Shown: positions 29,867 through 45,740 of the stretch, piece by piece | Layout: the number at the start of each line of letters is the position of its first letter | Numbering within the stretch: the stretch's first letter is position 1 | Program-made: the position numbers and the translations under genes | Source of the DNA: Bacteroidaceae bacterium | Lineage (GTDB): Bacteria; Bacteroidota; Bacteroidia; Bacteroidales; Bacteroidaceae | DNA: 64,000 nt | Reading direction: 5' to 3' | NCBI GenBank assembly: GCA_017615835.1 | Contig: JAFZZI010000031.1 | Location: 1 to 64,000, forward strand | The notes under the pieces: model-generated | Databases searched by the model: none | Seen by the model: only the letters and a program-made list of their open reading frames with translations | What the model was told of the DNA's origin: nothing

Positions 29867-30457
29867 CTAAGGATTATCTGTTGTACCGGAGTTCCTGTTC
29901 TTGTACGAGAAGGCGTTCCATCTCTCTTCGGGAATGGAGGAGAGATGGAGTTCGAAACGTGCCAGAACGAACAGAAGGTCAGACAGGCGGTTGACAAAAC
30001 TGAGGACAGGTTGCGGCAACGGGTCCTGACGGTTCAGAGTGCAGAGTCTTCGCTCTGCACGGCGTGCGACGGTGCGGGCATACTGGAGCTGGGCTGAGAG
30101 TGGAGTTCCACCAGGCAGCAGGAAATGACCTCCATCCGGCATCCGGACTGTAAGTGAGTCCATCCACTCCTCGCAGCGGCGGTCCATTTCAGGATCCAAG
30201 CTGTTGGGATTGGAAGTACGAAGGTCTGAAGGAGTAGCGACATGACTCATGACGGTCATGAGTTGAATCTGTATCTGTTTCAGTTTAGTATCCCATTCAT
30301 GTCCGGACGGCAGCATGCTGCGTATAATGCCTATCTGAGCATTGAGTTCGTCAAGAGAACCATTGGCCTCGACGCGAATGTCATCCTTTGGGACCCTCTC
30401 GCCTCCGTGAATGCCGGTAGTGGCGAAGTCGCCTGTACGTGTGTATATACGTTTCAT
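29867..30457 (-). CDS. PduO-type ATP:cob(I)alamin adenosyltransferase
   Basis: A 196-residue adenosyltransferase that moves the 5'-deoxyadenosyl group of ATP to cob(I)alamin or a corrinoid precursor. The N-terminal ATP-binding motif is TRTGDFATTG (usually TxTGDxGxT), followed by EANGSLDELNAQIG; the C-terminal helices carry ARTVARRAERRL and VNRLSDLLFVLAR, with the Arg and Asp residues conserved in PduO/MMAB enzymes. Length is normal. It starts 23 nt after the cbiA stop, so adenosylation is coupled genetically with a,c-diamide formation, the order of the pathway. The Ala for Gly in the ATP motif is a small oddity. Confidence 0.93.
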   Translation of the reverse strand: MKRIYTRTGDFATTGIHGGERVPKDDIRVEANGSLDELNAQIGIIRSMLPSGHEWDTKLKQIQIQLMTVMSHVATPSDLRTSNPNSLDPEMDRRCEEWMDSLTVRMPDGGHFLLPGGTPLSAQLQYARTVARRAERRLCTLNRQDPLPQPVLSFVNRLSDLLFVLARFELHLSSIPEERWNAFSYKNRNSGTTDNP

Positions 30458-30480: not shown

Positions 30481-31791
30481 TCACTGCCAAAGCCTGAAAA
30501 GGTCGGTCTCGCCCCAGTACCAGTGCGTATATCCTGCGACGACATTAAGATGACGGAAAAGACAGGTGTCGGTGACTATTCCCTCAGCGTCGGTCTGTTC
30601 GGCAGCCGAAAGAAGCTGTCCGTGGTTAGTGATGCTTGAATAGTGGAACTCATGCCCATGGAAAACCGTATTCCCCCACTCCATTCTGCGGTATCCGAGG
30701 TGAAGTCTGGCCTGATTCATTGTACAGTCGAGCGGCAGGACGCCTGACATGGGGAATTTGGTGCCTGTCGCATCGGTTAGCGAGCGTGACAGGTATATCA
30801 TTCCACCGCATTCGGCCATAATCCGCCCGCCTGAGGATGCATAACTGCGAAGTTGGTCTGCAAGCCGCGTATTGGCGGAGAGGGTCTCGGCAAAAAGTTC
30901 GGGATAGCCGCCGGGCAGATAGACGAGGTCGGCCTGCGGAAGGTGGTCGCCGGCAAGCGGACTGAATGTAATGACTGTGCCGGAAGCGGCAAGGCGGTCA
31001 ATATTCACGCGATAGGTGAAGTTGAAAGCGCTGTCGCTGGCCACGGCTATGCGAAGTCCGGTCTGCGACATTGGTCTGACCGGATCGGTGCTACAGTCAG
31101 TGGAGACTGTTGGTGATGTTGTCCGGCACAGTTGCAAAAGTCGTTCAATCCTGACATGGCGCTCAACCAGATCGGCGATGCGGTCGGCAAGCAAGTCTAT
31201 CTCAGATTCGGCACCCACAGTCAGCCCGAGATGTCGTGAAGGCACCTGTATTTCAGGACAGCGCGGAAGGCAGCCCAACAGTTCGACGCCTACGTCCCTG
31301 CAAGCCTGTTCGAGCAACTTTGCATGACGGTCTGAACCAACCTGGTTAAAGATGACACCGGCAATGCGCAGATCTTGCCTGAAAGTGCAGAGTCCATGCA
31401 ACAGTGCAGCCATTGTATAAGCCGTGGAACGGGCATTTATGATGATTATGACAGGCAAGTCGAGAAGCATTGCAATATGGGCGCTGCTGCCTTTCATCCT
31501 GTCGTAGCCGTCAAAAAGCCCCATGACACCTTCAGTTACGCAGACATCGGCGGAAACTGAATAGTGCCTATAGACGGACCTTACATGATTTTCAGAGGCA
31601 AGCCAGGTATCGAGGTTTACAGAACGGTTGCCGGAGGCAATACCGTGAAAAAGAGTATCAATGTAGTCCGGACCACATTTAAAGGGTTGCACCGCAAAGC
31701 CACGGCGACTTAGAGCCCGTAACAAGCCTATTGTGACTGTTGTCTTTCCGCTTCCGCTTGCAGCGGCTCCTATCAGCATGTGGGCTGTCAT
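30481..31791 (-). CDS. cbiA: Cobyrinate a,c-diamide synthase
   Basis: A 436-residue CbiA/CobB enzyme that amidates the a and c carboxylates of cobyrinic acid using glutamine and ATP. The N-terminal half is a dethiobiotin-synthetase-like ATPase with P-loop GAAASGSGKTT (residues 7-17), and VTEGVMGLFDGY as the downstream Mg/ATP motif. The C-terminal half is a class I glutamine amidotransferase domain: YLPGGYPELFAE, then the nucleophilic Cys in MAECGGMIYL, and a final GHEFHYS. A clear TAnnTTTG box lies 28 nt upstream on its own strand. The gene is divergent from the riboswitch-controlled receptor and does not share that riboswitch. It heads the run cbiA, pduO-type, peptidase, exporter. Confidence 0.95.
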   Translation of the reverse strand: MTAHMLIGAAASGSGKTTVTIGLLRALSRRGFAVQPFKCGPDYIDTLFHGIASGNRSVNLDTWLASENHVRSVYRHYSVSADVCVTEGVMGLFDGYDRMKGSSAHIAMLLDLPVIIIINARSTAYTMAALLHGLCTFRQDLRIAGVIFNQVGSDRHAKLLEQACRDVGVELLGCLPRCPEIQVPSRHLGLTVGAESEIDLLADRIADLVERHVRIERLLQLCRTTSPTVSTDCSTDPVRPMSQTGLRIAVASDSAFNFTYRVNIDRLAASGTVITFSPLAGDHLPQADLVYLPGGYPELFAETLSANTRLADQLRSYASSGGRIMAECGGMIYLSRSLTDATGTKFPMSGVLPLDCTMNQARLHLGYRRMEWGNTVFHGHEFHYSSITNHGQLLSAAEQTDAEGIVTDTCLFRHLNVVAGYTHWYWGETDLFRLWQ

Positions 31792-32081: not shown

Positions 32082-34352
32082 ATGATAAAGAGAGTTTTCT
32101 TCACTGCGGTCGTGCTTATTGCGGCCATGTCTGCCTATCCCCAAAAATCGGTAAGCGGAAGAGTAGTGAATGCTGACAACGGAGAACCTGTGCCCAACGC
32201 CAGCATTCGGGTTGACCACAGTCTGTCGGGGGGCTCGACGAACAACAAGGGAGAATTCACCCTGAACAACCTGCCGGAAGGACGGGAGTTGGTTCTGAGT
32301 GTTACCCATGTGTCGTTTCTGCCGAAAAGACAAACTGTCAAATCGGGTGACAGCGACATAGTGATTGAACTTCAGGAAAGTCACATTAATCTGGATCAGG
32401 TGGTTGTGACCGGTACAGGCACACACCGCAGGTCAGACAATTCTACTGTTCCTGTGCAGGTGATAACCGCAAACGATGTCAGAAACATTGGAACTGCCAG
32501 CCTTGAGGCTACGCTTGTGGCAATGTCGCCAAACGTGACGACAGTGACGAACGGAATGGGAACTTTCCTGAATATCAACGGTGTGGGACAGGACTACATG
32601 CTGGTACTGGAGAACGGACGGCGCGTCGTTGGAGATGACCGCTATTCAAGGATTAACACAGGAAACATCAAACGAATTGAGATACAAAACGGTGCTGCCT
32701 CTGCCCTTTACGGCAGCGAGGCAATCGGTGGCGTAATAAATATAATCACAGACGACCGAAAGAACGGCACCGAAGTGTCGTCACAGACACGGTTGGCCAG
32801 CAAGGGACGTTTTACCCAAAGCATCGATGCCGATGTCAGCATCGGGAAATTGAGGTCTTATACGGTCTTCAAGCGTCAGGAAGCTGACAACTGGCAGGTA
32901 AACGACATTGACGAAGAGGGTTATAAGACCGGAAGGCCAATGTCGGTAGGATTCAGGAGTAACAATGTAAACCAGCGTTTTTCATTCAGTGTCAACGATC
33001 GGCTGAACTTGTCGCTGAGAGGAAACTATTTTGAATACTCGACGCTCAGGCCTCAGTCAGCCACATACTTCAAGAAGAGCAGTTCAAAGGATGCGGAAGG
33101 CAACTATATATATAAGGAGACTCAGGCCTACACGTACGACATGGCACACAATTCATGGATGTATGGTGCCGGTATGGACTACATGGTGAGTCCGTCCGTC
33201 TATATTGAGGCAGACTTCTATGCAGACAACTATACTTCGCTTTACAGGTATTTCACGAAAAGCGGGGATTTCATGCCCGGTGATGAACAGAAACGAAAGG
33301 AGACACACTATTACGACGGTAGCGTCAAAGGAATACTGAAACCGGACAAGGCTAATAAGTTGTCAGTTGGTCTTGAATACATCAACGAACGGCTGGAGAG
33401 CGAGTCGGACAACATCGAGTCCGTGGGAACGCAGACCGGAGCCCTGTTTGTGCAGGATGAAATATCTATGACAAAGTGGCTTCAGGGCGTCGTAGGTCTG
33501 AGGTATATTTACAACGAGGACTTCAAGCATCATCTGACTCCGAATGTGTCACTTATGTTCAAACCCGGACGGTTTATTTTCAGGGCGGCATGGTCAACAG
33601 GCTACAGAGCCCCCACCCTGAGTCAGATATATGCCACCGACCAGAGCAAGACGGCAAGCAGATGTACGGTGGGCAACACTGGTCTGAGACCGGAGAGAAG
33701 CAATTTCTGGTCACTTAATGCAGAGTATTCTAACCCATGGTTTTCGCTGCGTGTTACGGGTCTTCTCAATGACATCCGCGACATGATCAACTATCGCGTA
33801 CTCAGCGATGCTGAGATAGATGCAATGGGATATGGAGAGCTTCACAAGGATTTCGCAATCGTGCGTCAGCGCGACAATGTTGACAGAGCCAAGATAAAGA
33901 GCCTGAGCATCAGCGCCAATGCATATCTTGGAGCGGGAATATCGATAGGAGGAGGTTACGTTCTGACCGACTCAGAGGCGAGATCTTACGGCAACGACGA
34001 AAACGGACAGGAGACAGTGACTGTGACACCTGTAGACAAAAGCGTAAGGCACTCCGGAAATGTGAATGCCCGCTGGGACTGGAGCCGTGGCAAGTACCAT
34101 CTGAACGTAACGCTTAACGGCCATATTCAGGGAGAACGCTACTCCAGTACCTACGGTTATGCACCTGGTTACAGTCAATGGGATCTTAACACCAGCCACT
34201 CGTTCTATTTGGACGAATTCATTGTAGAGCCAGGGATTGGCATCGAGAATATTTTCAACAACCGCGACGAAAGGCCCTGGAACAGTAATTTCTCGACCAT
34301 CTCTCCGGGGACTTCGGTCATGGTAAGCCTGGTTCTGAGATACAAGAAATAG
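32082..34352 (+). CDS. TonB-dependent outer-membrane corrinoid receptor (BtuB-like) 1
   Basis: A 756-residue TonB-dependent receptor. The start is the ATG at 32082, giving a signal peptide (FFTAVVLIAAMSAYPQ); the frame is open upstream but that runs through the riboswitch. Residues about 23-105 form a carboxypeptidase-regulatory-like sandwich (VSGRVVNADNGEPVPNASI), common in Bacteroidetes receptors. A plug follows (VVVTGTGTHRRSDNSTVPV to ALYGSEAIGGVINIIT), then a 22-strand barrel ending ...SLVLRYKK. Riboswitch control and the neighbouring corrinoid genes identify cobalamin or another corrinoid as the likely ligand. A second receptor follows after 10 nt. Which corrinoid each prefers is not visible from sequence. 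Confidence 0.92.
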   Translation: MIKRVFFTAVVLIAAMSAYPQKSVSGRVVNADNGEPVPNASIRVDHSLSGGSTNNKGEFTLNNLPEGRELVLSVTHVSFLPKRQTVKSGDSDIVIELQESHINLDQVVVTGTGTHRRSDNSTVPVQVITANDVRNIGTASLEATLVAMSPNVTTVTNGMGTFLNINGVGQDYMLVLENGRRVVGDDRYSRINTGNIKRIEIQNGAASALYGSEAIGGVINIITDDRKNGTEVSSQTRLASKGRFTQSIDADVSIGKLRSYTVFKRQEADNWQVNDIDEEGYKTGRPMSVGFRSNNVNQRFSFSVNDRLNLSLRGNYFEYSTLRPQSATYFKKSSSKDAEGNYIYKETQAYTYDMAHNSWMYGAGMDYMVSPSVYIEADFYADNYTSLYRYFTKSGDFMPGDEQKRKETHYYDGSVKGILKPDKANKLSVGLEYINERLESESDNIESVGTQTGALFVQDEISMTKWLQGVVGLRYIYNEDFKHHLTPNVSLMFKPGRFIFRAAWSTGYRAPTLSQIYATDQSKTASRCTVGNTGLRPERSNFWSLNAEYSNPWFSLRVTGLLNDIRDMINYRVLSDAEIDAMGYGELHKDFAIVRQRDNVDRAKIKSLSISANAYLGAGISIGGGYVLTDSEARSYGNDENGQETVTVTPVDKSVRHSGNVNARWDWSRGKYHLNVTLNGHIQGERYSSTYGYAPGYSQWDLNTSHSFYLDEFIVEPGIGIENIFNNRDERPWNSNFSTISPGTSVMVSLVLRYKK

Positions 34353-34362
34353 AGTAATTACT

Positions 34363-36510
34363 ATGAAAAGAGTTGTTCTGATTCTGTCGCTTGCACTGCC
34401 TGGCCTGCTGTATGCACAGTCCGGAGATTTGCTGTCGGGTCACATTGACGATGTGGTCGTAACAGCTACCGGTACTCCCCATACGCTAAAGGATGTTCCC
34501 GTCCAGACGGAAGTTGTTTCACGGAAACAGATTGAGCAGCTTGGTGCCTCATCGTTCCAGGACATTCTTGAACAGCTCTGTCCCGGATTCGACTTCAACG
34601 CAGGCGACATGGGAAGCCAGATGACCATGAATGGCCTTGGCAACAGCTATATTCTGATTCTTATTGACGGTAAGAGACTGCACGGTGACAATGGGGGCGA
34701 AAATGACCTCGGACTGATAGACCCCAACAACATTGATCACATAGAGATTGTCAAAGGTGCAGGTAGCGCCCTATACGGGAGCGATGCCATCGCAGGAGTA
34801 ATCAATGTCATAACTAGAAGGCATGACAGCGAGGGGCTATACCTTGAGAACACTACCCGGACCGGCTCATTCATGGATCTGAGACAGCATAACAGTATCG
34901 GCTTCAGCGTCGGCAAACTGACATCACTGACAAATTTCCAGTTGCAGCATACCGATGGCTGGCAGAACACCGGCGAGGAAGACCCGGCACAGACGGAGTT
35001 CCATATATTTGATTCGAAAAACAAGACGGTAAACCGCTATACCAATTGGCAGGTAGCCGAGAGACTGACATACTCTGTCACGGACAGACTGAGCTTATAC
35101 GCTGAAGGTTCGCTGTATGGCAAGCGAATATTCCGCCCGACTGACGGAAAATACCCGTCATGTGACGTGAATACATTCGACATGATGTATCGTGACGCTT
35201 CAGCTTCCATAGGTGGCGGATACGATCTGCAGAGCGGAGACCGCATAACGTTGGACGTAGACTGGAACAGGCATGCCTATTACTACAGATATACTGCCAC
35301 GACTCTTGAGGACGGGTATGACCCGCAAGGAGATTTCACTCACTATTTCCCATATTTCGCAGGACAGAGTAATCTTCAGAGCGACCAGCAGCGCGCCATT
35401 GCAACGCTGAAGGGAGTGTTTGCGCTGCCCCACGGCAACACTCTGAACGGAGGAGCCGAATTCAGGTACGACTATCTGAACGCTCCAATGAGGGTGTTTG
35501 ACGGAACTGCTGATGACTGGACCGCTTCCATATATGCTCAGGACGAGTACAATGAAATAGAGTGGCTGAATGTCACTGCCGGAATAAGGCTGACACAAAA
35601 CAGAAGGTCTGGATTCAATGCCGCTCCCAAGCTTAGCGTAATGCTGAAGACCGGCGAATGGAGGTTCAGGGCCGGATGGAGCCGGGGCTTCAAGTCACCG
35701 ACGCCTAAAGAACTGTACTACAAATATCTCCGCACAATGGGAGCCACGACATTTCTATATGTCGGCAACACAAATCTGAAAGCCCAAACTTCAGATTATT
35801 GGTCAACCAGTATTGAATACAGCCACGGGGGATTTACGGCATCGGTAACAGGCTACCTGAACAAATTGGACAACATGATTACGCTGGTCAATATTCCCGT
35901 CAGTGAAATACCGCAGGGAACCGCTGAATATATGGGAGACGGCAGCGCACAGATTGTTCCGCGCCAGTACCGCAACATGGATAATGCAAGGACGTATGGA
36001 GCCGATGTATCGGTGACCTGGAGAATAACATCTGATTTAACAGTCGGCGCAGGCTACAGCTATCTTGACACAGAGGCTAACCTATACGATGCGAACCATG
36101 ACAGAATGAAGCATGTCATTATTGACGGAATGGCACACCACAAGGGCAATATCTACAGTACGTGGCAGCATAGGTTTGCAGACAACTACAGACTGGGACT
36201 GGGAATCTACGGCAGGGCAAGCAGCACACGCTATTACCAGAACAATGGTGACGGGAAAGCTTACCAGCTGTGGAGGCTGACTACGGCACACGATATCGGG
36301 AAAGGACGCAAGGGAGTTACATTCCGGGTCGAAGCCGGTATTGACAATATATTCAATTATGTGGACAGAACCCCGCATGGGCTCCATCTGGGTACTACAA
36401 ACGCCGGTCGGACCTGGTACTGCACATTGAGTGTCAGGTTTACTCACGGCAGGAAGATGGACACCCGCGACATTACACGGGAATCCGGATACTCGTCTGA
36501 CGATGAATGA
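34363..36510 (+). CDS. TonB-dependent outer-membrane corrinoid receptor (BtuB-like) 2
   Basis: A 715-residue receptor with signal peptide (residues 1-19, ending LLYAQ), no carboxypeptidase-like N-domain, a plug (VVVTATGTPHTLKDVPVQTE to ALYGSDAIAGVINVIT) and a 22-strand barrel ending CTLSVRFTHG, after which a hydrophilic 20-residue tail follows the usual terminal aromatic strand. It is cotranscribed with receptor 1 (10-nt gap) under the cobalamin riboswitch and precedes a lipoprotein chelatase by 44 nt. Sequence divergence from receptor 1 suggests a different ligand, such as another corrinoid or a tetrapyrrole precursor. The C-terminal extension beyond the barrel is atypical, since the last barrel residue is normally the C-terminus. 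Confidence 0.9.
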   Translation: MKRVVLILSLALPGLLYAQSGDLLSGHIDDVVVTATGTPHTLKDVPVQTEVVSRKQIEQLGASSFQDILEQLCPGFDFNAGDMGSQMTMNGLGNSYILILIDGKRLHGDNGGENDLGLIDPNNIDHIEIVKGAGSALYGSDAIAGVINVITRRHDSEGLYLENTTRTGSFMDLRQHNSIGFSVGKLTSLTNFQLQHTDGWQNTGEEDPAQTEFHIFDSKNKTVNRYTNWQVAERLTYSVTDRLSLYAEGSLYGKRIFRPTDGKYPSCDVNTFDMMYRDASASIGGGYDLQSGDRITLDVDWNRHAYYYRYTATTLEDGYDPQGDFTHYFPYFAGQSNLQSDQQRAIATLKGVFALPHGNTLNGGAEFRYDYLNAPMRVFDGTADDWTASIYAQDEYNEIEWLNVTAGIRLTQNRRSGFNAAPKLSVMLKTGEWRFRAGWSRGFKSPTPKELYYKYLRTMGATTFLYVGNTNLKAQTSDYWSTSIEYSHGGFTASVTGYLNKLDNMITLVNIPVSEIPQGTAEYMGDGSAQIVPRQYRNMDNARTYGADVSVTWRITSDLTVGAGYSYLDTEANLYDANHDRMKHVIIDGMAHHKGNIYSTWQHRFADNYRLGLGIYGRASSTRYYQNNGDGKAYQLWRLTTAHDIGKGRKGVTFRVEAGIDNIFNYVDRTPHGLHLGTTNAGRTWYCTLSVRFTHGRKMDTRDITRESGYSSDDE

Positions 36511-36554
36511 GAGAGTTTTCTTCTATAATTATCAACTTTTTTAGAAAAGAATTT

Positions 36555-37655
36555 ATGAAAAATTTCAGGTTTCTGATGACCGCTGCGGTGGTCACTGTAG
36601 TTGCAGCAGGTTTAACCGGATGCAACAAGGGAGAAGAGTTCAAGAGCAATTATCAAATCTATCAGGAAGCCGTTGACAATGCCGTATCTGCAGAGAAGAA
36701 GCATGACAACGTTATTCTGCTTGTCGCCTTCGGATCGACATGGGATCAGGCCTTCAAGACCTTCGACGCTACAAAGGAGACCTACAGGCAGAAATTCCCC
36801 GACTATGATATCTATCTGTCGTACTCTTCGGCAATATGCATCAATCGCGCCGCTGCCGGTGAGAACACCGATCCGCGCAACTATTATGCACCGAACTTCT
36901 GGCTACACGCTTTCGGAACGGCACAATACAAGAACATTGTTGTTCAGTCTCTTCAGGTTATCCCGGGTGAGGAGTATGCACGTGTAATAAACTACATGAA
37001 AGACTTCGCCAACAACCATACCGGCGACATTGACGACAAGTATCTGAGCGAAGTTGAACTGAGACTTGGAGTTCCACTGCTTCAGGATTCCGAGGAGGAC
37101 GTCAAAGAAGTTGCAAAACGCCTGAACCTTCTGTACAAGGACAAGGCAGCCGAGGGGGTCGTGGCTTTCATGGGTCATGGAAACCCCGACTCGTATGACA
37201 CCTACAAGGCTAACATCCGCTACACTGAACTGGAAGAGGCTCTTCAGGCTCACAGCAAGAACTACTTTGTCGGCACTGTCGACATGATGGGAAACTTCAA
37301 GACAAATGTTCTCAAGCGCATGATTGAAGCAGGTATCAATAGCGGCAAGGTGTTCTGCCACCCGTTGATGTCAATAGACGGTGACCACGGCCACAACGAC
37401 ATGGCAGGCAACGACTGCCCGGAAGGTGTTGAGAAGTTCTCCGACCTTGAGGAGAATGAAGAGGGTGAAGTTGAGGATTGCAGCTGGAAAGTATATTTCA
37501 ATCTGGCCGGATATGAATGCAACAACAACACGATGATAGATAAGGGTCTGCTGGAACTTCCGTCAATCCGCGAGATCTGGATGAACCACACTCAGGATGC
37601 CATCAACGGCGAACCACTTGATTTCTATCACAGCATGTATCCCGAGGCTGAGTAA
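36555..37655 (+). CDS. cbiK: CbiK-type sirohydrochlorin cobaltochelatase, lipoprotein form
   Basis: A 366-residue class II chelatase related to CbiK, which inserts cobalt in sirohydrochlorin in the anaerobic B12 route. The ATG at 36555 gives a lipoprotein signal (VVTVVAAGLTGC, Cys23), so this copy is predicted to be anchored outside the cytoplasm. Conserved elements include VILLVAFGSTWDQAF, the metal-binding His in VAFMGHGNPDS, VDMMGNFKTN and a second His cluster in SIDGDHGHNDMAG. A periplasmic CbiK is known in Desulfovibrio vulgaris. A Glu/Asp-rich insertion (LEENEEGEVED) near residue 300 is unusual. Position between two outer-membrane receptors and an ABC importer under one riboswitch suggests a role in uptake rather than, or in addition to, de novo synthesis. 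Direction of metal transfer is unknown. Confidence 0.9.
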   Translation: MKNFRFLMTAAVVTVVAAGLTGCNKGEEFKSNYQIYQEAVDNAVSAEKKHDNVILLVAFGSTWDQAFKTFDATKETYRQKFPDYDIYLSYSSAICINRAAAGENTDPRNYYAPNFWLHAFGTAQYKNIVVQSLQVIPGEEYARVINYMKDFANNHTGDIDDKYLSEVELRLGVPLLQDSEEDVKEVAKRLNLLYKDKAAEGVVAFMGHGNPDSYDTYKANIRYTELEEALQAHSKNYFVGTVDMMGNFKTNVLKRMIEAGINSGKVFCHPLMSIDGDHGHNDMAGNDCPEGVEKFSDLEENEEGEVEDCSWKVYFNLAGYECNNNTMIDKGLLELPSIREIWMNHTQDAINGEPLDFYHSMYPEAE

Positions 37656-37668
37656 TAATCTTTTTTAG

Positions 37669-37676
37669 TATATTTG
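37669..37676 (+). promoter_or_regulatory. Internal -7 box ahead of importer genes
   Basis: TATATTTG, an exact TAnnTTTG match, between cbiK and the binding-protein gene. Transcription would start about 37682, exactly at the base of a strong hairpin. Confidence 0.45.
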
Positions 37677-37681
37677 ACGGT

Positions 37682-37724
37682 CCGTCCTGTCATGCGGCAC
37701 TAAATGACCGCACGGGCAGGACGG
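37682..37724 (+). other. Intercistronic hairpin
   Basis: CCGTCCTG (37682-37689) pairs with CAGGACGG (37717-37724), and TGCGG (37693-37697) with CCGCA (37708-37712), around a 10-nt loop with an asymmetric internal loop of 3 and 4 nt. No U-tract, so not a standard terminator; it could protect the 5' end or limit read-through between cbiK and the importer genes. Confidence 0.7.
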
Positions 37725-37748
37725 GTTGTCTTTAAAGCCTTGGCTTTT

Positions 37749-38915
37749 ATGAACAAATGGAAACTGGCGCTACTGTGCTGCACGGTTCTGACACTTGTCG
37801 GTGCCTGCCGCAACGCCGGACGCAATCAGACAGGACGGGGAAGAATCTCTGTTGTGGGGATGAAGGCTGACTCTGCCAGATTTGAAAGGCTTGATATAAA
37901 ATATGCCGGAGGATTTTCTCTGACATACGACGACGGTGTCTGTCTTGTTGACATTCAAGACCCGCAGAAAGAGGAAAGCCAGTCATTCCACTATGCCCTG
38001 GTGCGGAGAGGATCCACACACCCTGCCCTGCCCAAAGATTATACTGTCATCGAGGTTCCGGTCAGAAGAGTAATCTGCATGACCTCGTTGCAGTTGTCAA
38101 ACTTCATCAAGCTCGGAGCAACCGATGCCGTTGCCGGTATTACCAGTACGAGACATCTTTTCAACGAAGAAATGAACCGGAGAATAGCAGACGGACGGAC
38201 TCACAAGATTGGCATTGAGGGGAACTTCGACAATGAGGTCATAATGGGAGTGAATCCAGACCTTATACTTATTTCGCCATTCAAACGAGGAGGCTATTCT
38301 GCACTTAAGGATGTGGACATAACTCTAGTTCCCCATCTGGGATACAAGGAGACTACTCCGCTCGGACAAGCCGAATGGGTCAAATTTATAGGTCTGCTGC
38401 TGGGTATGGAAACTGATGCTGAGAATGTGTTTGACGAAATTGAGAAACGCTACACCGAACTGGCATCACTCGCAAAGAATGCAAATGGTCGTCCTGTAGT
38501 GTTCAGCGGAGAAATACAAGGGGGAAACTGGTATGCCGTGGGCGGTAACAGTTTCCTGGCCAACATTTTCAGAGATGCCGGAGCTGACTACTTTTTGAAG
38601 GATGACAATCACTCGGGCGGTGTAACGCTCGACTACGAAGTTGTTTACAGTCAGGCCGCAAACGCTGATTATTGGCGTATTGTCAACAGCTACAACGGTG
38701 ATTTCTCATATGGTGCACTGATGGACGAGGATGCCAGGTATGCCGACTTCAAGGCATTCAGGGACAAGGGTGTCATCTATTGCAATATGAGCCGGAAGCC
38801 CTTCTACGAAAGCATGCCGATGGAACCGGAACTGGTTCTTTCCGATTTCATCAAGGTTTTCCATCCTGAACTGCTGCCCGATTACCAGCCTGTATATTAC
38901 GAACTGCTGAAATGA
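37749..38915 (+). CDS. ABC importer substrate-binding lipoprotein (BtuF-like)
   Basis: A 388-residue binding protein of the siderophore/cobalamin (FecB/BtuF) class. The ATG at 37749 gives a lipoprotein signal ending LVGAC. The fold's two lobes are recognisable: VPVRRVICMTSLQLSNFIKLGATDAVAGITS begins lobe one, and NPDLILISPF with the linker helix WVKFIGLLLGMETDAENVFDEIEKRY leads to lobe two (GGNSFLANIFRDAGADYFLKD). Its stop overlaps the permease start by 4 nt. The neighbours argue for corrinoid binding, but the large lobe insertions relative to E. coli BtuF leave room for heme or other tetrapyrroles. Confidence 0.88.
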   Translation: MNKWKLALLCCTVLTLVGACRNAGRNQTGRGRISVVGMKADSARFERLDIKYAGGFSLTYDDGVCLVDIQDPQKEESQSFHYALVRRGSTHPALPKDYTVIEVPVRRVICMTSLQLSNFIKLGATDAVAGITSTRHLFNEEMNRRIADGRTHKIGIEGNFDNEVIMGVNPDLILISPFKRGGYSALKDVDITLVPHLGYKETTPLGQAEWVKFIGLLLGMETDAENVFDEIEKRYTELASLAKNANGRPVVFSGEIQGGNWYAVGGNSFLANIFRDAGADYFLKDDNHSGGVTLDYEVVYSQAANADYWRIVNSYNGDFSYGALMDEDARYADFKAFRDKGVIYCNMSRKPFYESMPMEPELVLSDFIKVFHPELLPDYQPVYYELLK

Positions 38916-39952
38916 AACGCTCGGTGATGCCATACATGCTGCTGATAACAGCACTTATCGTGTTTGTATTCATGCTTAACCTGTTGCTGGGATCTGTGAG
39001 CATACCCTTCCGTGCGGTGTGGAACATCATCTGGAACGCCGGAGGAAATGACATCATACAGCAGAACATAGTACTGAAGTCCAGGCTTCCGCAAGCTGTC
39101 ACGGCTATTGTGGCCGGTGCCGGGCTCTCAATAAGCGGTCTCCAGATGCAGACTGTATTCAGAAACCCGCTGGCAGGTCCGTCTGTGCTGGGTATCAGCT
39201 CCGGTGCAAGCATGGGAGTGGCATTTGTGGTTCTATTATCAGGCAGCATAGGCGGTGTTGCTCTTAGCAGACTCGGGTTTGCCGGTGACATGGCTATGAC
39301 TGTCGGAGCTATCGCCGGATCGCTTTCAGTCATGGCTCTCATAGTATATGTGTCCCAGAAGGTTAAAGGCAACGTCACCCTTCTTATTATTGGAGTCATG
39401 ATCGGATACGTAGCTAACGCAATCATCGGTGTCCTGAAGTTTTTCAGCGTCGAAGAGGACATACGTGCTTTTGTGGTATGGGGACTGGGCAGTTTTGCCA
39501 GGGTTTCAGGAAACCAGACTACCTTGTTCTTCTACATGATGATTATAGTCCTGCCTCTGTCATTTCTGCTGGTCAAGACACTTAACCTTCTTCTGCTTGG
39601 CGATGCATATGCCCGCAATCTCGGTCTGAACATAAAGAGAGCACGTATGTATGTCATCAGCTACTCCGGCATTCTGGTAGCTATCGTAACAGCTTATTGC
39701 GGTCCTATCAACTTTCTGGGACTGGCGGTACCGCATCTCTGCAGAGGCATATTCAAGACATCGGACCATAGGACCCTGACTCCGGCATGTATTCTGGTGG
39801 GGGCATTGTTCGCGCTGACCTGCAATCTTATTGCGCGCATGCCGGGCATTGAGGGTGCACTGCCGGTAAACTCTGTTACTGCTCTGGTGGGAGCTCCTGT
39901 CGTAATCACCGTACTTTTCAGGAAGAGACGGAACAACGGAATCGCGGAATGA
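38912..39952 (+). CDS. ABC importer permease, FecCD/BtuC family
   Basis: A 346-residue permease with about ten hydrophobic segments. Family signatures include GLSISGLQMQTVFRNPLAGPSVLGISSGA near residues 70-100, the GLGSF and LGLNIKRAR coupling region, and GPINFLGLAVPHLCRGIFKTSDHR that contacts the ATPase. The C-terminus (GAPVVITVLFRKRRN) is typical. It overlaps the binding-protein gene by 4 nt (ATGA) and is followed by the ATPase gene 1 nt after its stop. By analogy with BtuC it forms a dimer with two copies of the ATPase. Substrate is inferred to be a corrinoid. Confidence 0.92.
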   Translation: MKRSVMPYMLLITALIVFVFMLNLLLGSVSIPFRAVWNIIWNAGGNDIIQQNIVLKSRLPQAVTAIVAGAGLSISGLQMQTVFRNPLAGPSVLGISSGASMGVAFVVLLSGSIGGVALSRLGFAGDMAMTVGAIAGSLSVMALIVYVSQKVKGNVTLLIIGVMIGYVANAIIGVLKFFSVEEDIRAFVVWGLGSFARVSGNQTTLFFYMMIIVLPLSFLLVKTLNLLLLGDAYARNLGLNIKRARMYVISYSGILVAIVTAYCGPINFLGLAVPHLCRGIFKTSDHRTLTPACILVGALFALTCNLIARMPGIEGALPVNSVTALVGAPVVITVLFRKRRNNGIAE

Positions 39953-39953
39953 C

Positions 39954-40964
39954 ATGAAGAAGGAGACGATTAGGATAGATTCACTTAGCACCGGCTACCG
40001 GCTGAAGAGAGAGGTCCGGGTAGTAGCAAGAAATATAAATGCCTCGATTCACAGCGGTGAACTGACTTGTCTTTTGGGAGCCAACGGTGCCGGCAAATCA
40101 ACACTTCTGCGAACTTTGGCTGCGTTTCAGCCTCCCATAGACGGAAGTATCAGAATAATGGGCAGAAACATCAATGAATTCAGCGACAAGGAGCTGTCCA
40201 AAGCCATCGGCGTAGTCCTGACAGAAAAGGTGGATATCCGCAACATGAGCGTTGAAGATCTGGTCGGTTTGGGACGAAGTCCATACACTGGGTTCTGGGG
40301 CATACTGGACGATACTGACCGCCAGGTTGTCAGGGATGCACTCGCAATGGTAAAGATAGAGATGCTGAAAGACCGGATGACAGATACGCTCAGCGATGGA
40401 GAAAGACAGAAGGTTATGATTGCTAAGGTTCTTGCACAGCAGACTCCGATAATCTTTCTCGATGAACCTACAGCCTTTCTTGACTATCCGAGCAAGGTAG
40501 AGATCATGCAGCTGCTGCACAGTCTGTCACGCAACGAGAACAAGACGGTTTTCCTGTCAACGCACGATCTTGAGTTGGCACTTCAGATTGCGGACAAGAT
40601 ATGGCTGATGGACAAAGAGAAAGGTGTAGTGATCGGGACTCCAGAAGACTTGTCATACGACGGTAGCCTCAGCAGTTTCTTCAACAGGCGCGGCATAGTA
40701 TTCGATGTTGGAAACGGCCTGTTCAGAATAGACAACGAATGTAGCAGAAGCGTCTGCCTCACCGGCAACCGGAAACTGTTTCCGCTGGTGCGGAAGGCCC
40801 TGCAGCGAAACGGGATAAGTACCTTGACCGAAAGCACCGGCTGCACAGACATTGAAGTCAACGTCTCAGAGAGTGATACAGGACTTGAATTCACCGTAAA
40901 ACGCGATGGAAAGCCTGATATGAATGTCAGCGGCATCAATGGACTGCTTGAATCAGTTCAGTAG
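39954..40964 (+). CDS. ABC importer ATPase (BtuD-like) with C-terminal extension
   Basis: A 336-residue ATPase. Walker A is LGANGAGKST near residues 43-52, the Q-loop area reads IGVVLTEK, the signature is LSDGERQ (normally LSGGQ), and Walker B is IIFLDEPTAFLD, with the switch His in STHDLE. These belong to the siderophore/B12 importer class. The protein is about 80 residues longer than BtuD; the extra C-terminal part (from about 255) contains NECSRSVCLTGNRKLFPLV and TLTESTGCTDIEVNV, apparently a small regulatory domain of alpha-beta type seen on some Bacteroidetes homologues. The gene ends in a 7-nt convergent overlap with cbiJD. Confidence 0.9.
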   Translation: MKKETIRIDSLSTGYRLKREVRVVARNINASIHSGELTCLLGANGAGKSTLLRTLAAFQPPIDGSIRIMGRNINEFSDKELSKAIGVVLTEKVDIRNMSVEDLVGLGRSPYTGFWGILDDTDRQVVRDALAMVKIEMLKDRMTDTLSDGERQKVMIAKVLAQQTPIIFLDEPTAFLDYPSKVEIMQLLHSLSRNENKTVFLSTHDLELALQIADKIWLMDKEKGVVIGTPEDLSYDGSLSSFFNRRGIVFDVGNGLFRIDNECSRSVCLTGNRKLFPLVRKALQRNGISTLTESTGCTDIEVNVSESDTGLEFTVKRDGKPDMNVSGINGLLESVQ

Positions 40965-42742
40965 ATCCTACCCTCTTCATCAATCAGCAGAATTGTCAGG
41001 GTACCGTCTGGAAGAAGAGGGTCGCAGTGCGAATGGCAATGCGACAGAACTGTCTTACTGAAACTCTCCAAGTATTCGGGGGGGACTATGTTCCATAAGT
41101 CACGAGCCAGAGTAATGTTACGGGCGGCAGCAACAACTCTTTCCGGGCAAGAAGACTGACGTACAAGAGAACAGACAAAATCAATATTCATTGTGCCTAG
41201 TTTACTATGGGTGTCGAGACTGCCTTCGGCAAGTTTTACCGCCTTGCCAATCATAACTCCCATTGTTACCTGCCTTATTTTCAGATCAGCGGCAATTCTG
41301 AGTGTTTCTCCGATATAGTTGCCATAATGTACAAAAGCCTGCGGAGGAAGATCTGGATAGACAGCCTTTACGAAACGCTCGCTTCTGGCTCCTGAGTTGA
41401 TAACAAGTCGGCTGGCACCTACGGCCACACATACTTCAACCTCGCGTCTTATGGCTTCGACAAATGCTTCTGACGAGAATGGAATCACAATACCCGAAGT
41501 GCCAATTATGGATATTCCGCCGACAATCCCCAGCTTGGGGTTGAAAGTTCGCTGAGCCAGTTCCTCGCCATGAGGTACGGAAACTGTCACATCAAGACCT
41601 CCGTCATAGATAGTTGTCAGGGCTTCAGTTATCATCTTCCGCGGTATTGGGTTGATTGCCGGCTCACCAGGTTCAATACCCAAACCTGGCAGAGTAACCC
41701 TCCCCACTCCGCATCCCTGAAGAAAATGGATGCCTGGGGTTTTGCTGAGAGTCACGCTAACCGAAACGGTACATCCGTCAGTCACATCGGGATCGTCTCC
41801 GGCATCTTTTACCACAGATGCCGTTGCACTGTCTTTTCCGACAATTGTACGGGAAACAGGCAGTGTCATTACTTCACCGTCAGGAATTGAAAAACTCACA
41901 TCACTCTGTTCTTCGCCTGTTATCAGGGCAAGTAGAGCCGCCCGGGCTGCTGCAGTTGCACAAGCACCTGTAGTGTACCCGCTACGCAACGGGAAACAGC
42001 CCGGCAAAAGACGTTCGATCTGTTTTCGAAGCCCATGTTCCCCTGTCACAGTAATGAACGATGACGGCAGTTCTGGCCTTTTCACCGCATAAACGGGTAT
42101 GCCCAACGATGCGGCTGCTGACACTTTGCCGACAAATCCACCGGATAACCCGCTCTCTTTGGTAAGTACTGCCTGAGGCTTCAGCTCTCTCATAAGAGAC
42201 TCCTCTGGTTCATCATTATGGTAAAAAACAAGATTGTCACTGTCAAAACCCTGATCCACTGCTGATTTTACCGACTCTTCACGGTCAAGAATCCTGAACC
42301 AGCACCGGTTATTCATCCAGTATCTCTTCAATTTGCCGATTGTCTGTACACCGGTAAGTGCAAGCAAACTCTCAATACCGTCCCCTAGCAGACGTTCCAC
42401 AGCGTCATCATACCCGTCGCACCAGATTACATCGTCCGTCCTTGGCGGATAGACACGTTCTACGCGTATTACGGGAACTCCCAGCATCGAAGACACCTTT
42501 TCTACAGTATCATGTAGCCGGACAGCAAAAGGATGTGCAGCGTCAATGAGCAGACGGATGCCGTTGCTGCGGCAGAATTCTGTCAGTTCCCCGAAATCCT
42601 TGGCTCCGGTAACCTGGATTCCGTTACGGGTATCAACCTGCTGTCGTTCACCTCGGGTAGAGTAATAGAAGGTTTTGCCCGTCTGATCGGCCACCTTTGC
42701 CGCCAGCCGGCCTTCAGTAGTGCCTCCAAGTATGAGAATCAT
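40958..42742 (-). CDS. cbiJD: CbiJ-CbiD fusion: precorrin-6A reductase / cobalt-precorrin-5B C1-methyltransferase
   Basis: A 594-residue two-domain enzyme of the anaerobic corrin pathway. Residues 1-245 are CbiJ/CobK, starting MILILGGTTEGRLAA, with DAAHPFAVRLHD and LALTGVQTIGKL typical of this NAD(P)H reductase of cobalt-precorrin-6A. Residues about 250-594 are CbiD, opening with RSGYTTGACATAA (253-265), then GVGRVTLPGL, the glycine-rich GIVGGISIIGTSGIV, and MGVMIGKAVKLAEG. CbiD methylates C1. Fusion of these two is unusual in enterics, where they are separate genes. It is the last gene of the operon, overlapping cbiGF by 4 nt, and converges on the importer ATPase with a 7-nt overlap. Confidence 0.93.
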   Translation of the reverse strand: MILILGGTTEGRLAAKVADQTGKTFYYSTRGERQQVDTRNGIQVTGAKDFGELTEFCRSNGIRLLIDAAHPFAVRLHDTVEKVSSMLGVPVIRVERVYPPRTDDVIWCDGYDDAVERLLGDGIESLLALTGVQTIGKLKRYWMNNRCWFRILDREESVKSAVDQGFDSDNLVFYHNDEPEESLMRELKPQAVLTKESGLSGGFVGKVSAAASLGIPVYAVKRPELPSSFITVTGEHGLRKQIERLLPGCFPLRSGYTTGACATAAARAALLALITGEEQSDVSFSIPDGEVMTLPVSRTIVGKDSATASVVKDAGDDPDVTDGCTVSVSVTLSKTPGIHFLQGCGVGRVTLPGLGIEPGEPAINPIPRKMITEALTTIYDGGLDVTVSVPHGEELAQRTFNPKLGIVGGISIIGTSGIVIPFSSEAFVEAIRREVEVCVAVGASRLVINSGARSERFVKAVYPDLPPQAFVHYGNYIGETLRIAADLKIRQVTMGVMIGKAVKLAEGSLDTHSKLGTMNIDFVCSLVRQSSCPERVVAAARNITLARDLWNIVPPEYLESFSKTVLSHCHSHCDPLLPDGTLTILLIDEEGRIY

Positions 42743-44556
42743 TTACGGAACAGATGTTTGAATTCGTGTGCGTAAAGTCTGGATAGGCCGTGGCGGTTGT
42801 CTATCGCCTCGCCAACGACAAGCAATGTAGTAAGGGTAAGATTGTTTTCCCGTACCATTCGGGCAAGATTCCGAAGCTCACCCCTGTATATGCGTTCATC
42901 CTTCCATGTAAGCTTGTAACAAGCTGCAACGGGAGTTTCGGGTGGATAGGCTTGAAGCAACTCTTCCTGGACTTTCTCAACTATGGCGGCACTGAGGAAG
43001 ATGCACATGGTGCTGTTCGATTGTGCCAGTTTGTGCAGTTGCTCTTTTTCAGGCATTGGTGTGCGACCTTCGCCTCTCGTAAGTATTATGCTCTGGACTT
43101 TTTCGGGTATTGTAAACTGGGAGCGCAGGGCTGCGGCTGCGGCCTGGAATGAAGATATACCCGGAGTAATGTGGTATCTCATTCCATATCTGTCGAAGAA
43201 TGCCATTTGTTCCTGTATGGCTCCATAAATGCATGGGTCACCTGTATGCAGGCGGACGACAAACAATCCGCGGTCATAAAAATCCTTCATCAAGGCGAAC
43301 TGCTGTTCTAAATCCATGTCGGCAGAACTGCGTACAACAGCACCTGCCTTGGCACAGAATGTCAACTCACGGGGGACCAGGCTTCCGGCATATAATATGA
43401 GATCGGCCTCTTCAAGCATATGCCTGCCCCGAACCGAAATAAGATCCGGATCACCCGGCCCTGCTCCTACAATCTCAATGCGCCCTCCCCGTACAGCACT
43501 GTTGTCAACGGTCACAGCATAAGTAAAGTCATTGCCTTTGGACAGACATCCTTTCTGTTTTTCCATTACCACCGGACCATACCCGCTACTTTTGATAGCT
43601 GTGCTTTCAGCCACACCATACAGGCCAGTTACCTGAAATGCTTTGTCTGAAGGGTTTGGTACTTGAATGTCGCATAGCTCGCCGGCTGACCATATATTCA
43701 GCTCGGTTTCAGGCCAATGCTGCTGGAGCGAACGAAGCATTGGCTCGTCGCGCTTCAGTTCTATGGTACTTATACTGCGCAGAGAAGCCGGATCATATCC
43801 AAACTTCCTTATGCAGGAATCAATATACTCAGGAATGCCGGTGGAATCGCACATCCTGCGGCAACCTATTCCAATATTAAGAACCCTGGGACGATAGAAC
43901 AACGATGGCAAAGGTGCTTCATAAATCCGCGGAGTAACAGCTATCAGAAGCTCAAAATCTTTAAAATCAATATCGGAATAGTTGTAGAAAATCCTCACGT
44001 GGTGTGGTACGCTCCTCTCGAGCCATTCAGTGCCATTGTCGCGTATGTCAAGCAGCAATGCAGTAGGACGGCAGCCTACAAACAGCGAAATTATCCGGTT
44101 CATCTCCTTTCGGGGAATCGTATATGTCCATCCGAACCTCTGACCGATTGTGTCCAGCGGCCAGAGTTCCATCGCATCGCTCTGTGTTGTAATAACAGCC
44201 GTAGCACCCGTCGCATGGGCCAATCGGCGTGCCAGGTCGTTGGCACCTCCAATGTGCCCCGAAAGTACAGGTATTACAAACCTTCCCATACTGTCAATAC
44301 ACACAACTGCAGGGTCTGTGTATTTGTCTCTGACATATGGCGCTATGCTGCGGACGCATATCCCGAGCGCTCCTATGAATACGATCTGTCCGAATTCATG
44401 AAAGCGCTGTCTCATCAGCAGCTGGTATGAATCGATGTGCGTACACCCTTCAGCATCAGTTGCAGAAAATATTTCAGCTTCATCAAGCTCATGACTCACA
44501 CTTCGCGCAAGTGGAAGTGAAGTTCCGGTAACAAGCACTATTGCAGACTGTTTCAT
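42739..44556 (-). CDS. cbiGF: CbiG-CbiF fusion: cobalt-precorrin-5A hydrolase / precorrin-4 C11-methyltransferase
   Basis: A 605-residue fusion. Residues 1-345 are CbiG, which opens the ring-A lactone and releases acetaldehyde: FIGALGICVRSIAPYVRDKYTDPAVV and SGHIGGANDLARRLA are signature stretches, and LNIGIGCRR begins the CbiG C-terminal domain. Residues about 357-605 are CbiF/CobM, a SAM-dependent tetrapyrrole methylase, with VGAGPGDPDLI at 363-373, YAGSLVP, RLHTGDPCIYGAIQEQM and TPGISSFQAAAAAL. Reaction order is inverted within the protein, since CbiF acts before CbiG. Overlaps of 4 nt at both ends tie it to cbiET and cbiJD. Confidence 0.93.
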   Translation of the reverse strand: MKQSAIVLVTGTSLPLARSVSHELDEAEIFSATDAEGCTHIDSYQLLMRQRFHEFGQIVFIGALGICVRSIAPYVRDKYTDPAVVCIDSMGRFVIPVLSGHIGGANDLARRLAHATGATAVITTQSDAMELWPLDTIGQRFGWTYTIPRKEMNRIISLFVGCRPTALLLDIRDNGTEWLERSVPHHVRIFYNYSDIDFKDFELLIAVTPRIYEAPLPSLFYRPRVLNIGIGCRRMCDSTGIPEYIDSCIRKFGYDPASLRSISTIELKRDEPMLRSLQQHWPETELNIWSAGELCDIQVPNPSDKAFQVTGLYGVAESTAIKSSGYGPVVMEKQKGCLSKGNDFTYAVTVDNSAVRGGRIEIVGAGPGDPDLISVRGRHMLEEADLILYAGSLVPRELTFCAKAGAVVRSSADMDLEQQFALMKDFYDRGLFVVRLHTGDPCIYGAIQEQMAFFDRYGMRYHITPGISSFQAAAAALRSQFTIPEKVQSIILTRGEGRTPMPEKEQLHKLAQSNSTMCIFLSAAIVEKVQEELLQAYPPETPVAACYKLTWKDERIYRGELRNLARMVRENNLTLTTLLVVGEAIDNRHGLSRLYAHEFKHLFRK

Positions 44557-45740
44557 TCAGCTTTCATTATTTCAATTGGATTGTGGTCATCAACTGCCAC
44601 CCTTATACATCCGGTTATCTTTCGCCCCACGGCCGAAACGCCTTCTGCAAACAATGCCTGACTCTGCTCTGAAACAGAATTGAAGACTATTACACCTCCC
44701 GGCATAAGCACTTTGTCAATAACCCCTATCATTTCGGCAAGTAAACCTCCGTGTCCACCGATAAATACTGCGTCTGGGCGCGGGTAACTGTCGAGAGACA
44801 GTTCCATGAAATCTCCCTCAACTGCGGTAATGCCCGGAGTTCCGAACCGGATGCTGTTTGCAGTCATCAGTTCCATCCCCTGAGGTCTCTTTTCAAAGGC
44901 TGTAATGTCTAGATGAGGGAATCTCAGTTTTGCTTCAATAGATACGGAACCGGTACAGAAGCCAATATCCCAGAATGAATTGCGGCTTCCGAGATCCAGC
45001 ATGCTGAGCACAGCAAGACGCACAGGCATTTTAGTAATCATTCTTGTGCGGCCTTCAAGCAAAGCAAAAGAGCTGTCGGGTATTCCAAAAGGGATTTGTC
45101 TTGACGATGTCTGCCGCAAGATGACGCAATTTGGATATCTGAAATTCATTCCGACAGTATCAGCAAGGGTCATGGTTCGGACACGCTCCGATATGCCGTT
45201 GCCCAGCGATTCTCCCACTGAAACCTCATAGTTGTCATAGCCATACTGAAGCATGCGCCGGGCAATTGAATCAGGTGTCTTACTACTGTCAGTAAGCACC
45301 CCTATCAATTTCTCACCTTGAATGAGGGCTGTATCCAATCCCTTCCACAGACGTCCGGTAAGAGAAACTGAACGCATGTCCTGATAAGGGAGCAGCAGCC
45401 TGTGGGCCAGCATCTGAAGTGAATTGAAATAGGGATAGACATGAACCTCGGCATCAGGCATTTCACGCATTACTGTCGAGGCAAAGCCATAAAACAACGG
45501 ATCCCCCGATGCAAAAACGATGATTGCGGGATGTAAAGAATACTCGGTGAACACGTCGTTCAATGGGACTCTGATCTCAATCCATTCCGAGTCTTCGGGA
45601 AGCAGGCGGGCTACAAGTTCATGGTGTCTTTTACCACCGGAGAACACCCTGCCGCCGGCTATTAAATCCATAGCCTCACCCGACAACTCCTTTGAAGGAT
45701 CATCGCTTATGCCAATAATATGTATCACCTGTCTAGACAT
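44553..45740 (-). CDS. cbiET: CbiE-CbiT fusion (CobL-like): cobalt-precorrin-6B C5,C15-methyltransferase/decarboxylase
   Basis: A 395-residue bifunctional enzyme. Residues 1-200 are CbiE (C5 methylation), a tetrapyrrole methylase fold with FSGGKRHHELVA, FASGDPLFYGFAS and YPYFNSLQMLAHRL. Residues about 230-395 are CbiT (C15 methylation and decarboxylation), with TKMPVRLAVLSML and the SAM-binding WDIGFCTGSVSIE (257-269), then VFIGGHGGLLAEM. This is the same pairing as aerobic CobL. The ATG at 45740 overlaps the upstream gene by 8 nt; a GTG one codon earlier is the alternative. The SAM motif has FC where GAG is usual, a mild deviation. Confidence 0.93.
   Translation of the reverse strand: MSRQVIHIIGISDDPSKELSGEAMDLIAGGRVFSGGKRHHELVARLLPEDSEWIEIRVPLNDVFTEYSLHPAIIVFASGDPLFYGFASTVMREMPDAEVHVYPYFNSLQMLAHRLLLPYQDMRSVSLTGRLWKGLDTALIQGEKLIGVLTDSSKTPDSIARRMLQYGYDNYEVSVGESLGNGISERVRTMTLADTVGMNFRYPNCVILRQTSSRQIPFGIPDSSFALLEGRTRMITKMPVRLAVLSMLDLGSRNSFWDIGFCTGSVSIEAKLRFPHLDITAFEKRPQGMELMTANSIRFGTPGITAVEGDFMELSLDSYPRPDAVFIGGHGGLLAEMIGVIDKVLMPGGVIVFNSVSEQSQALFAEGVSAVGRKITGCIRVAVDDHNPIEIMKAE

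Follow-up and report, generated by a model that had tools for sequence, protein, structure and literature searches.

A riboswitch-preceded cassette with a CbiK-family lipoprotein

We analysed a 64,000-nucleotide stretch of DNA (the window; positions 1 to 64,000 of contig JAFZZI010000031.1) from a Bacteroidaceae bacterium (assembly GCA_017615835.1; 32 contigs totalling 2.34 Mb, with a completeness of 82%). Between positions 32082 and 40964 it carries a cassette of six genes encoding two TonB-dependent receptors, a lipoprotein of the CbiK family and a three-part ATP-binding cassette (ABC) importer, next to genes for the corrin ring of vitamin B12. Import of a corrin precursor through this cassette is well supported by gene content, and the further possibility considered below is that the lipoprotein inserts cobalt into that precursor outside the cytoplasm.

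All six genes are adjacent open frames on the + strand, with gaps of 10, 44, 93, -4 and 1 bases, and all have Pfam matches above cut-off (TonB receptor twice, CbiK, Peripla_BP_2, FecCD and ABC_tran). Receptor 1 (32082..34352; scanned from 31923) has a CarboxypepD_reg-like N-terminal domain. Receptor 2 (34363..36510) is followed by the CbiK-family gene (36555..37655), for which the ATG at 36555 was taken as the start within a longer frame (36507-37655). The importer consists of a binding lipoprotein (Peripla_BP_2; 37749..38915), a FecCD-type permease (38912..39952) and an ATPase with a C-terminal extension (39954..40964), the latter two also per NCBIfam models. An initial annotation of the window had described a receptor-chelatase-importer cassette running in one direction, and that description was confirmed for the place and strand of all six frames.

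Upstream on the same strand lies a full-length Cobalamin riboswitch (RF00174, 31849..32040; 93 bits against a gathering score of 31.5), which ends 41 nt before the ATG of receptor 1 and is the sole match to this model found in the genome. A strong predicted hairpin (37676..37730, + strand; -37.8 kcal/mol, z -5.5) occupies the gap between the CbiK and binding-protein genes; it has no T run and is not listed as terminator-like. This hairpin could separate expression of the CbiK half from that of the binding-protein half, and the riboswitch may thus govern mainly the first three genes, which fits the initial annotation's placing of the first part of the cassette under cobalamin control.

The BtuB model TIGR01779 (cut-off 599.7) was failed by receptors 1 and 2 at 122 and 119 bits, despite being the top-scoring NCBIfam model for receptor 1, and the best solved relatives of the receptors are Cir, with BtuB lower in the list. 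The initial label "BtuB-like" is thus not established, and we refer to both as generic TonB receptors. The importer had been called BtuF/C/D-like. Its permease does score best on the BtuC model NF003001, yet below cut-off (199 bits against 334), and the binding protein could not be identified as BtuF with NCBIfam models or through solved relatives.

Recurrence of the cassette and its link to corrin genes

The counts over 80 relatives or loci given below are for the best 80 of 339 CbiK relatives. Their titles name Prevotellaceae, Prevotella, Bacteroidaceae, Muribaculaceae, Porphyromonadaceae and Bacteroidales (one reads plain "bacterium"), and the records are of metagenome-assembled genomes or uncultured isolates, commonly of ruminant gut origin. 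All 76 relatives with room for one have a TonB receptor immediately upstream of CbiK in the same orientation, in the place of receptor 2. A strict B12-box pattern gave merely five sites across the 80 loci, and the Rfam model was used instead. With it, a Cobalamin riboswitch was found upstream in all 21 scanned cassettes that include that region (13/13 and 6/6 in two batches, plus 2/2 genus loci; the seventh locus of the second batch, L123, begins inside the receptor gene). Given these two counts, the cassette arrangement is not due to chance. Of the two outgroup loci scanned, L126 has a riboswitch, and L128 has none in a fetched stretch that may stop short of the operon start. Separately, in L121 (18330-18541) and L124 (17625-17836) a Cobalamin riboswitch precedes a lipoprotein-like gene adjoining the corrin operon; the L121 product matches Peptidase_M49 weakly (25.5 bits, cut-off 21).

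Of the 74 relatives with at least 3 kb of downstream sequence, 46 have corrin genes behind CbiK in the same orientation, and some cbi gene is present in the fetched flank of 55 of the 80. At L123, a single strand runs from receptor 2, CbiK and the importer to cbiHC, ET, GF, JD, cobU, cobT and cobS. Within the genus, co-occurrence was counted over 17 genomes (the source genome and 16 of at least 85% completeness), with corrin status read off the CbiH and CbiF frames of a PF00590 methylase search, not off a search for CbiD; the methylase matches of G007, G011 and G022 (frames of 242-258 aa) were counted as RsmI-type on size alone, unread. CbiK and CbiH occur in the same 6 genomes, and the other 11 have neither (Fisher p 8e-5, uncorrected for linkage or kinship). 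The link between CbiK and corrin genes is strong. It is not universal within the fetched flanks, as 25 of the 80 relatives show no cbi gene there, several of them in stretches of about 20 kb, and in the outgroup loci L127 and L133 a lipoprotein CbiK stands beside a receptor with no corrin genes in the stretch. Across the order, CbiK matches occur in 18 of 198 genomes, above the cut-off in 13, and the exported-CbiK system is not general there.

The loci without cbi genes would suit a system for finished corrinoids (cobalamin, cobinamide) in which CbiK is no chelatase and acts as a corrinoid-binding surface lipoprotein in the manner of BtuG or BtuH. The B12 riboswitch, the BtuC-like permease and a surface-type lipoprotein beside the receptor would all be expected of such a system, and many Bacteroidota take up corrinoids in this way using other lipoproteins (PMC10404256, PMC8941943; here and below, papers are cited from the parts of their text that were available). 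However, CbiK tracks corrin-ring genes and not mere need for B12, with 11 of the 17 genus genomes having neither; in relatives it is built into the corrin operon, its catalytic histidines are invariant, and a corrin pathway fed with finished corrinoids would have no starting ring. We regard this explanation as unlikely.

Corrin-ring genes with the early steps apparently missing

The cassette and a corrin operon of four gene fusions on the - strand converge tail to tail with a 7-base overlap. The fusions are cbiJ-cbiD (40958..42742) and cbiG-cbiF (42739..44556), assigned per Pfam and NCBIfam, and cbiE-cbiT (44553..45743) and cbiH-cbiC (45733..47139), assigned by profile match. On the other flank, profile matches identify cbiA/cobB, for cobyrinate a,c-diamide synthase (30481..31791, - strand), and a PduO-type cob(I)yrinic acid a,c-diamide adenosyltransferase (29867..30457, - strand). 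The window thus holds the corrin-ring genes CbiH to CbiC plus CbiA, and its CbiH passes the equivalog cut-off. In G021, of the same genus, the pathway continues with cobU, cobT, cobS, cbiP, cobD and cbiB, the nucleotide-loop genes among them. Beside cbiHC, on the same strand, the window also encodes an FMN_red/flavodoxin-like protein with a signal-like N-terminal stretch (47196-47897), a possible reductant for corrin steps.

HemB was found in none of 37 genus genomes, the source genome included, whereas it turned up in 6 of 24 genomes from elsewhere in the order under the same search (which did not extend to the locus genomes or to G093, G136, G185, G205 and G119). PF00590 was run on the genomes of 21 of the 80 loci, and PF01903 and PF06180 on those of 24; these were chosen by us and are mostly from corrin-bearing loci. 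CobA and CbiL were not found in the source genome, where the PF00590 matches are CbiF, CbiH, CbiE and RsmI alone, nor in 24 further genomes (G005, G009, G021 and the 21 locus genomes), which gave the same set, three of them without one member. A further, CbiL-like PF00590 match of 94-124 bits was present in all four outgroup genomes (G093, G185, G205 and G136); two of these calls were scored with the CbiL model (156.5 and 110.8 bits), one protein is 45% identical to a scored one, and one call was made by eye. The CbiL cut-off of 163 bits is an unfair yardstick, as the scored CbiL-like proteins reach 111-157 bits, and the absence is argued instead from the gap to the best genus match, which has 46.9 bits and lies inside a CbiHC frame. 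Six extra weak methylase matches (26.7-38.8 bits) were rejected as CbiL: the four that were read (L134-L137) look like a second RsmI-type protein, and those of G021 and G247 were left unread. In three loci the lipoprotein CbiK is directly followed by a CbiL-like gene, namely in L015 (11124-11825; 144.5 bits), L068 (11182-11856) and L072 (11182-11856), and no other CbiL-like match at E 1e-10 was found in the 80 loci.

From these gene contents the pathway looks orphaned: the steps up to precorrin-2 (HemB, CobA) appear to be missing and those from CbiH onward are kept; HemA, HemL, HemC and HemD were not searched for. If precorrin-2 cannot be made, a ring that has reached at least the factor II stage would have to come from elsewhere, or the corrin genes would be idle, and idleness seems unlikely given that corrin operons are intact in many species. 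Roper (2000), in a paper whose title speaks of an "enigma", is said to have described a functional corrin pathway in Porphyromonas gingivalis. That species is listed as being without the steps to precorrin-2 (PMC6461909), and gut Bacteroidetes have already been described as salvaging early precursors (PMC8941943, PMC6461909).

Family and active site of the CbiK-like lipoprotein

The window CbiK matches PF06180 at 142.4 bits (cut-off 26.2). Its N-terminus, MKNFRFLMTAAVVTVVAAGLTGC, comprises a signal peptide and a lipobox leading to Cys23 (36555..36623), followed by NKGEE, and the initial call of a lipoprotein with Cys23 was borne out. The protein fails the sirohydrochlorin cobaltochelatase equivalog NF047852 (96.5 bits against 400), as does a relative without a signal peptide from genome G119 (142 bits against 400). 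The solved relatives found were, in this order, FetB of P. gingivalis (9b86, E 1.9e-27), 2xvx, which we take to be the periplasmic cobaltochelatase CbiKP of Desulfovibrio vulgaris, and Salmonella CbiK (1qgo); no others were found, and a family-profile search left the order unchanged. In an unrooted tree of 30 rows, in which the three reference rows are aligned stretches alone and some branches are long, a 100/99 split separates 18 rows that include the window CbiK and FetB from the rows that include CbiKP and Salmonella CbiK.

The kinship with FetB would agree with a heme or metalloporphyrin system like that of P. gingivalis, in which the lipoprotein removes iron from porphyrins, or swaps their metal, before uptake. 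The absence of HemB, by which an outside porphyrin is probably needed, and the best model for receptor 2, a heme-receptor model (159 bits, below its cut-off), would also fit. On the other hand, a B12 riboswitch precedes 21 of 21 cassettes, CbiK is linked to the corrin operon and co-occurs with corrin genes in the genus, and the genus genomes that do not have CbiK do not have HemB either, so porphyrin need alone does not require CbiK. We consider a heme system very unlikely here.

The catalytic residues of Salmonella CbiK are His145 and His207 (PMC7689651). The alignment used for comparison has 102 rows (115 matches less 14 identical copies, plus the window), and the equivalent positions, His208 and His278 in the window, are histidine in every row. 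The place of Glu175 (counted on 1qgo), presumably a metal ligand, is taken by Asp243 in the window; 89 of the rows have Asp there and the other 13 Glu. An apparent loss, the change of the QSLH histidine to Gln in 83 of the 102 rows, was considered as evidence of a dead active site and rejected, since counting on 1qgo assigns His145 to the FMGHG histidine, which is retained.

The Asp form also occurs in the G119 relative, which has an in-frame stop 8 codons upstream and no signal peptide. Its neighbours in the cluster at L131 (10135-17833) are CbiM, a CbiO-like ATPase, HemA, HemC and CobA-HemD, and no corrin-ring gene was found in the 60 kb read around it; this CbiK may serve siroheme or B12. 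The case, a single one, suggests that Asp at the Glu175 place is compatible with function and that location tracks the source of the ring, and it may serve as a natural counterpart for comparison with exported CbiK.

More divergent CbiK proteins with an ordinary-looking signal peptide were seen in L074 and L076 (15384-16217), L129 (9960-10880), L006 (6449-7288) and L078 (10902-11825). That of L074 is beside receptors, with corrin genes not nearby, and that of L129 is beside receptors, a PepSY_TM protein and a corrin operon. This group possibly handles another metal or ring.

Export signals

In Bacteroidota, an acidic motif after the lipid-bearing cysteine drives export of lipoproteins to the outer surface; the motif is K-(D/E)2 in Capnocytophaga, and SDDDD, inferred for B. 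fragilis, is functional in Capnocytophaga (PMC5080379). Lipoboxes were compared for 84 CbiK genes (the 80 relatives, three from the genus and the window) and 22 binding-protein genes, less the two and one rows, respectively, in which the lipobox pattern failed. At least two acidic residues at +3 to +6 were present in 82 of 82 CbiK lipoboxes, most commonly as CKDDKDD, CSDDKDD or CSDDDDD, and in 0 of 21 binding-protein lipoboxes. The window's own binding protein has its lipobox at Cys20 with the acidic motif absent. By this signal a surface location is likely for the CbiK family and probable for the window CbiK, whose CNKGEEF is a weak form with two acids at +5 and +6, and the binding protein looks periplasmic.

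Other cobalt chelatases

Alternative enzymes for cobalt insertion were sought in 30 cassette genomes (the source genome, five from the genus and 24 locus genomes), in 29 of which corrin genes were seen; the remaining one is the locus genome G261 (L072). CbiK is present in all 30. A second CbiK occurs in four of them, where it has a signal peptide in three cases and is a 101-aa fragment in the other. No cytosolic-looking CbiK or CbiX was found in the 30, and the four CbiX matches all fall on second CbiK genes. No other class II chelatase was found in 26 of the genomes, and in the remaining four none looks cytosolic. CbiX had also been a candidate in seven genomes and was ruled out, as the matches sit on CbiK genes. 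A marginal CbiX match in the outgroup genome G185 (22.4 bits, cut-off 22) was left unread. CobN is absent from the source genome, the one genome covered by that search. The lipoprotein CbiK is the only candidate found for cobalt insertion.

These results bear on two explanations that retain precursor import and give the lipoprotein a different part. In the first, it merely binds and delivers a corrin precursor, with cobalt already present or inserted by another, unrecognised enzyme. The replacement of Glu175 by Asp, the replacement of the QSLH histidine by Gln and the failed cobaltochelatase equivalog would all be in keeping with lost catalysis. Against this, the equivalents of His145 and His207 are invariant, the search of the cassette genomes gave no second chelatase of the required kind, and the G119 relative, which has no signal peptide and is encoded next to a cobalt importer, also has Asp, though with no corrin gene in the 60 kb there. 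We judge this explanation to be somewhat unlikely. In the second, the lipoprotein acts in reverse, taking iron out of siroheme or a different metal out of a related ring, and the freed ring is imported and given cobalt later. This agrees with an alternative raised in the initial annotation and with the proposal that the P. gingivalis protein, also named IhtB, removes iron (PMC10913741). In contrast, the histidine site is the same as in cobalt-inserting enzymes, and no separate cytosolic cobaltochelatase was found for the step that would have to follow; we rate reverse action a shade below even the heme system in probability.

A candidate route for salvage of corrin precursors

The explanation we favour, to which we give slightly better than even weight, is B12-repressed salvage of half-made corrin rings from outside the cell, with a surface CbiK inserting Co2+ before import. 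When B12 is low, the riboswitch would be relieved and the route turned on. The CbiK lipoprotein, which belongs to the FetB branch, would probably sit at the outer surface, docked to receptor 2 in much the way that BtuG is to BtuB. There it would capture a metal-free isobacteriochlorin from outside (sirohydrochlorin or a closely related ring) and insert Co2+. A TonB receptor would carry the cobalt complex across the outer membrane, the binding protein and the FecCD-type importer would deliver it to the cytoplasm, and CbiH and later enzymes would complete the corrin there. We infer the extracytoplasmic cobalt insertion and the identity of the ring, along with the surface location, the docking and the path through the importer. 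With a chelatase-like lipoprotein beside a receptor, outside the cytoplasm, and no cytosolic counterpart found, cobalt insertion outside is the simplest reading. A precedent for chelation by a CbiK-like lipoprotein is FetB, which a 2026 review presents as a chelatase loading protoporphyrin IX with manganese; porphyrins are said there to build up on the surface of the outer membrane (PMC13402209).

The initial annotation had proposed an extracytoplasmic chelatase feeding the corrin pathway. Its observations were confirmed, and this interpretation is partly supported and strengthened by the early genes not found, the operon linkage, the genus co-occurrence and the failure to find a cytosolic class II cobaltochelatase; the export signal points to the surface and not to the periplasm.

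Several points weigh against the salvage route. The genomes are incomplete, the source genome included, which weakens each single absence, and it is the agreement across many genomes that carries the weight. The CobN result covers one genome. The fetched flanks of 25 of the 80 relatives and the outgroup loci L127 and L133 show CbiK apart from corrin genes. FetB, the solved protein nearest to the window CbiK, has been described in connection with protoporphyrin and heme, receptor 2 leans to a heme-receptor model, Asp243 replaces Glu175, and the window's export motif is weak. Finally, with CbiL not found, the genes that were found could not finish sirohydrochlorin itself.

This last point bears on which ring is imported. 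Since CbiL was not found and the first corrin enzyme encoded is CbiH, factor III would be the simplest food. Factors of this type are excreted by some bacteria. CbiH is listed as cobalt-factor III methyltransferase in a figure legend of PMC12654859. In the three loci with a CbiL-like gene behind CbiK (L015, L068 and L072), sirohydrochlorin would suffice. A more specific version of the salvage route can therefore be put forward tentatively, and we think it rather unlikely as it stands: the cells would enter the B12 pathway midway on intermediates made by other organisms, the imported ring would be factor III, the trimethylated isobacteriochlorin, or its cobalt complex, the surface lipoprotein would insert the metal outside the cytoplasm so that cobalt enters inside the ring, and L015, L068 and L072 would use sirohydrochlorin. 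Alternatively, C20 methylation could be due to an enzyme that escaped recognition, or CbiH could have a second activity.

The cassette, which in numerous Bacteroidales of the gut and rumen is often joined to the corrin genes, is a candidate gene-by-gene answer to the long-standing question of where such cells obtain their ring: a receptor, a chelatase and an importer under B12 control. If the salvage route is correct, gut and rumen communities would trade early B12 intermediates in addition to cobinamide and finished cobamides, and the insertion of the metal, commonly assigned to the cytosol, could occur outside it.

Comparison with known systems

D. vulgaris CbiKP is likewise an exported CbiK with, per the alignment, the same catalytic histidines, and differs in lying on the other side of the tree split. 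Its host makes its own sirohydrochlorin, and CbiKP is not known to be tied to TonB receptors. The cytosolic sirohydrochlorin cobaltochelatase of Salmonella shares the family and His145 and His207; in contrast, it has Glu175 and no signal peptide in the solved chain, and belongs to a complete pathway. The BtuB-BtuG(-BtuH) systems of Bacteroides also pair a surface lipoprotein with a TonB receptor under riboswitch control, but BtuG and BtuH bind finished cobamides and are not of the CbiK family (PMC10404256, PMC8941943).

The tetrapyrrole precursor salvagers of Shelton 2019 similarly have a corrin pathway without its early steps. That group is defined by complete corrin-ring and nucleotide-loop pathways, from which the present case departs in that CbiL was not found. 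The paper names the gap, and its available text names no transporter or chelatase to fill it (PMC6461909). A rumen metagenome paper has a CbiK enzyme both transporting sirohydrochlorin and joining it to cobalt, with no TonB or export argument for CbiK in the parts available (PMC12654859). A full-text search, with most subscription papers and preprints outside its coverage, turned up no account in which an exported CbiK is linked with TonB receptors and a corrin operon.

The initial annotation had likened the cassette to the hmu heme locus. HmuS/BtuS of the Bacteroidota hmu locus is indeed an exported chelatase-like protein beside a TonB receptor, but it is CobN-like and reported to be without similarity to CbiK (PMC13227078), and was ruled out as an analogue. 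The true analogue is ihtABCDE of P. gingivalis, which has a TonB receptor, the CbiK-like lipoprotein IhtB/FetB (PG0669), a binding protein, a permease and an ATPase, and is described as a heme/iron uptake locus in which IhtB possibly removes iron (PMC10913741). FetB keeps Glu at the 175 place, where the window has Asp, and the window differs further in its B12 riboswitch, its corrin-ring genes and its two receptors.

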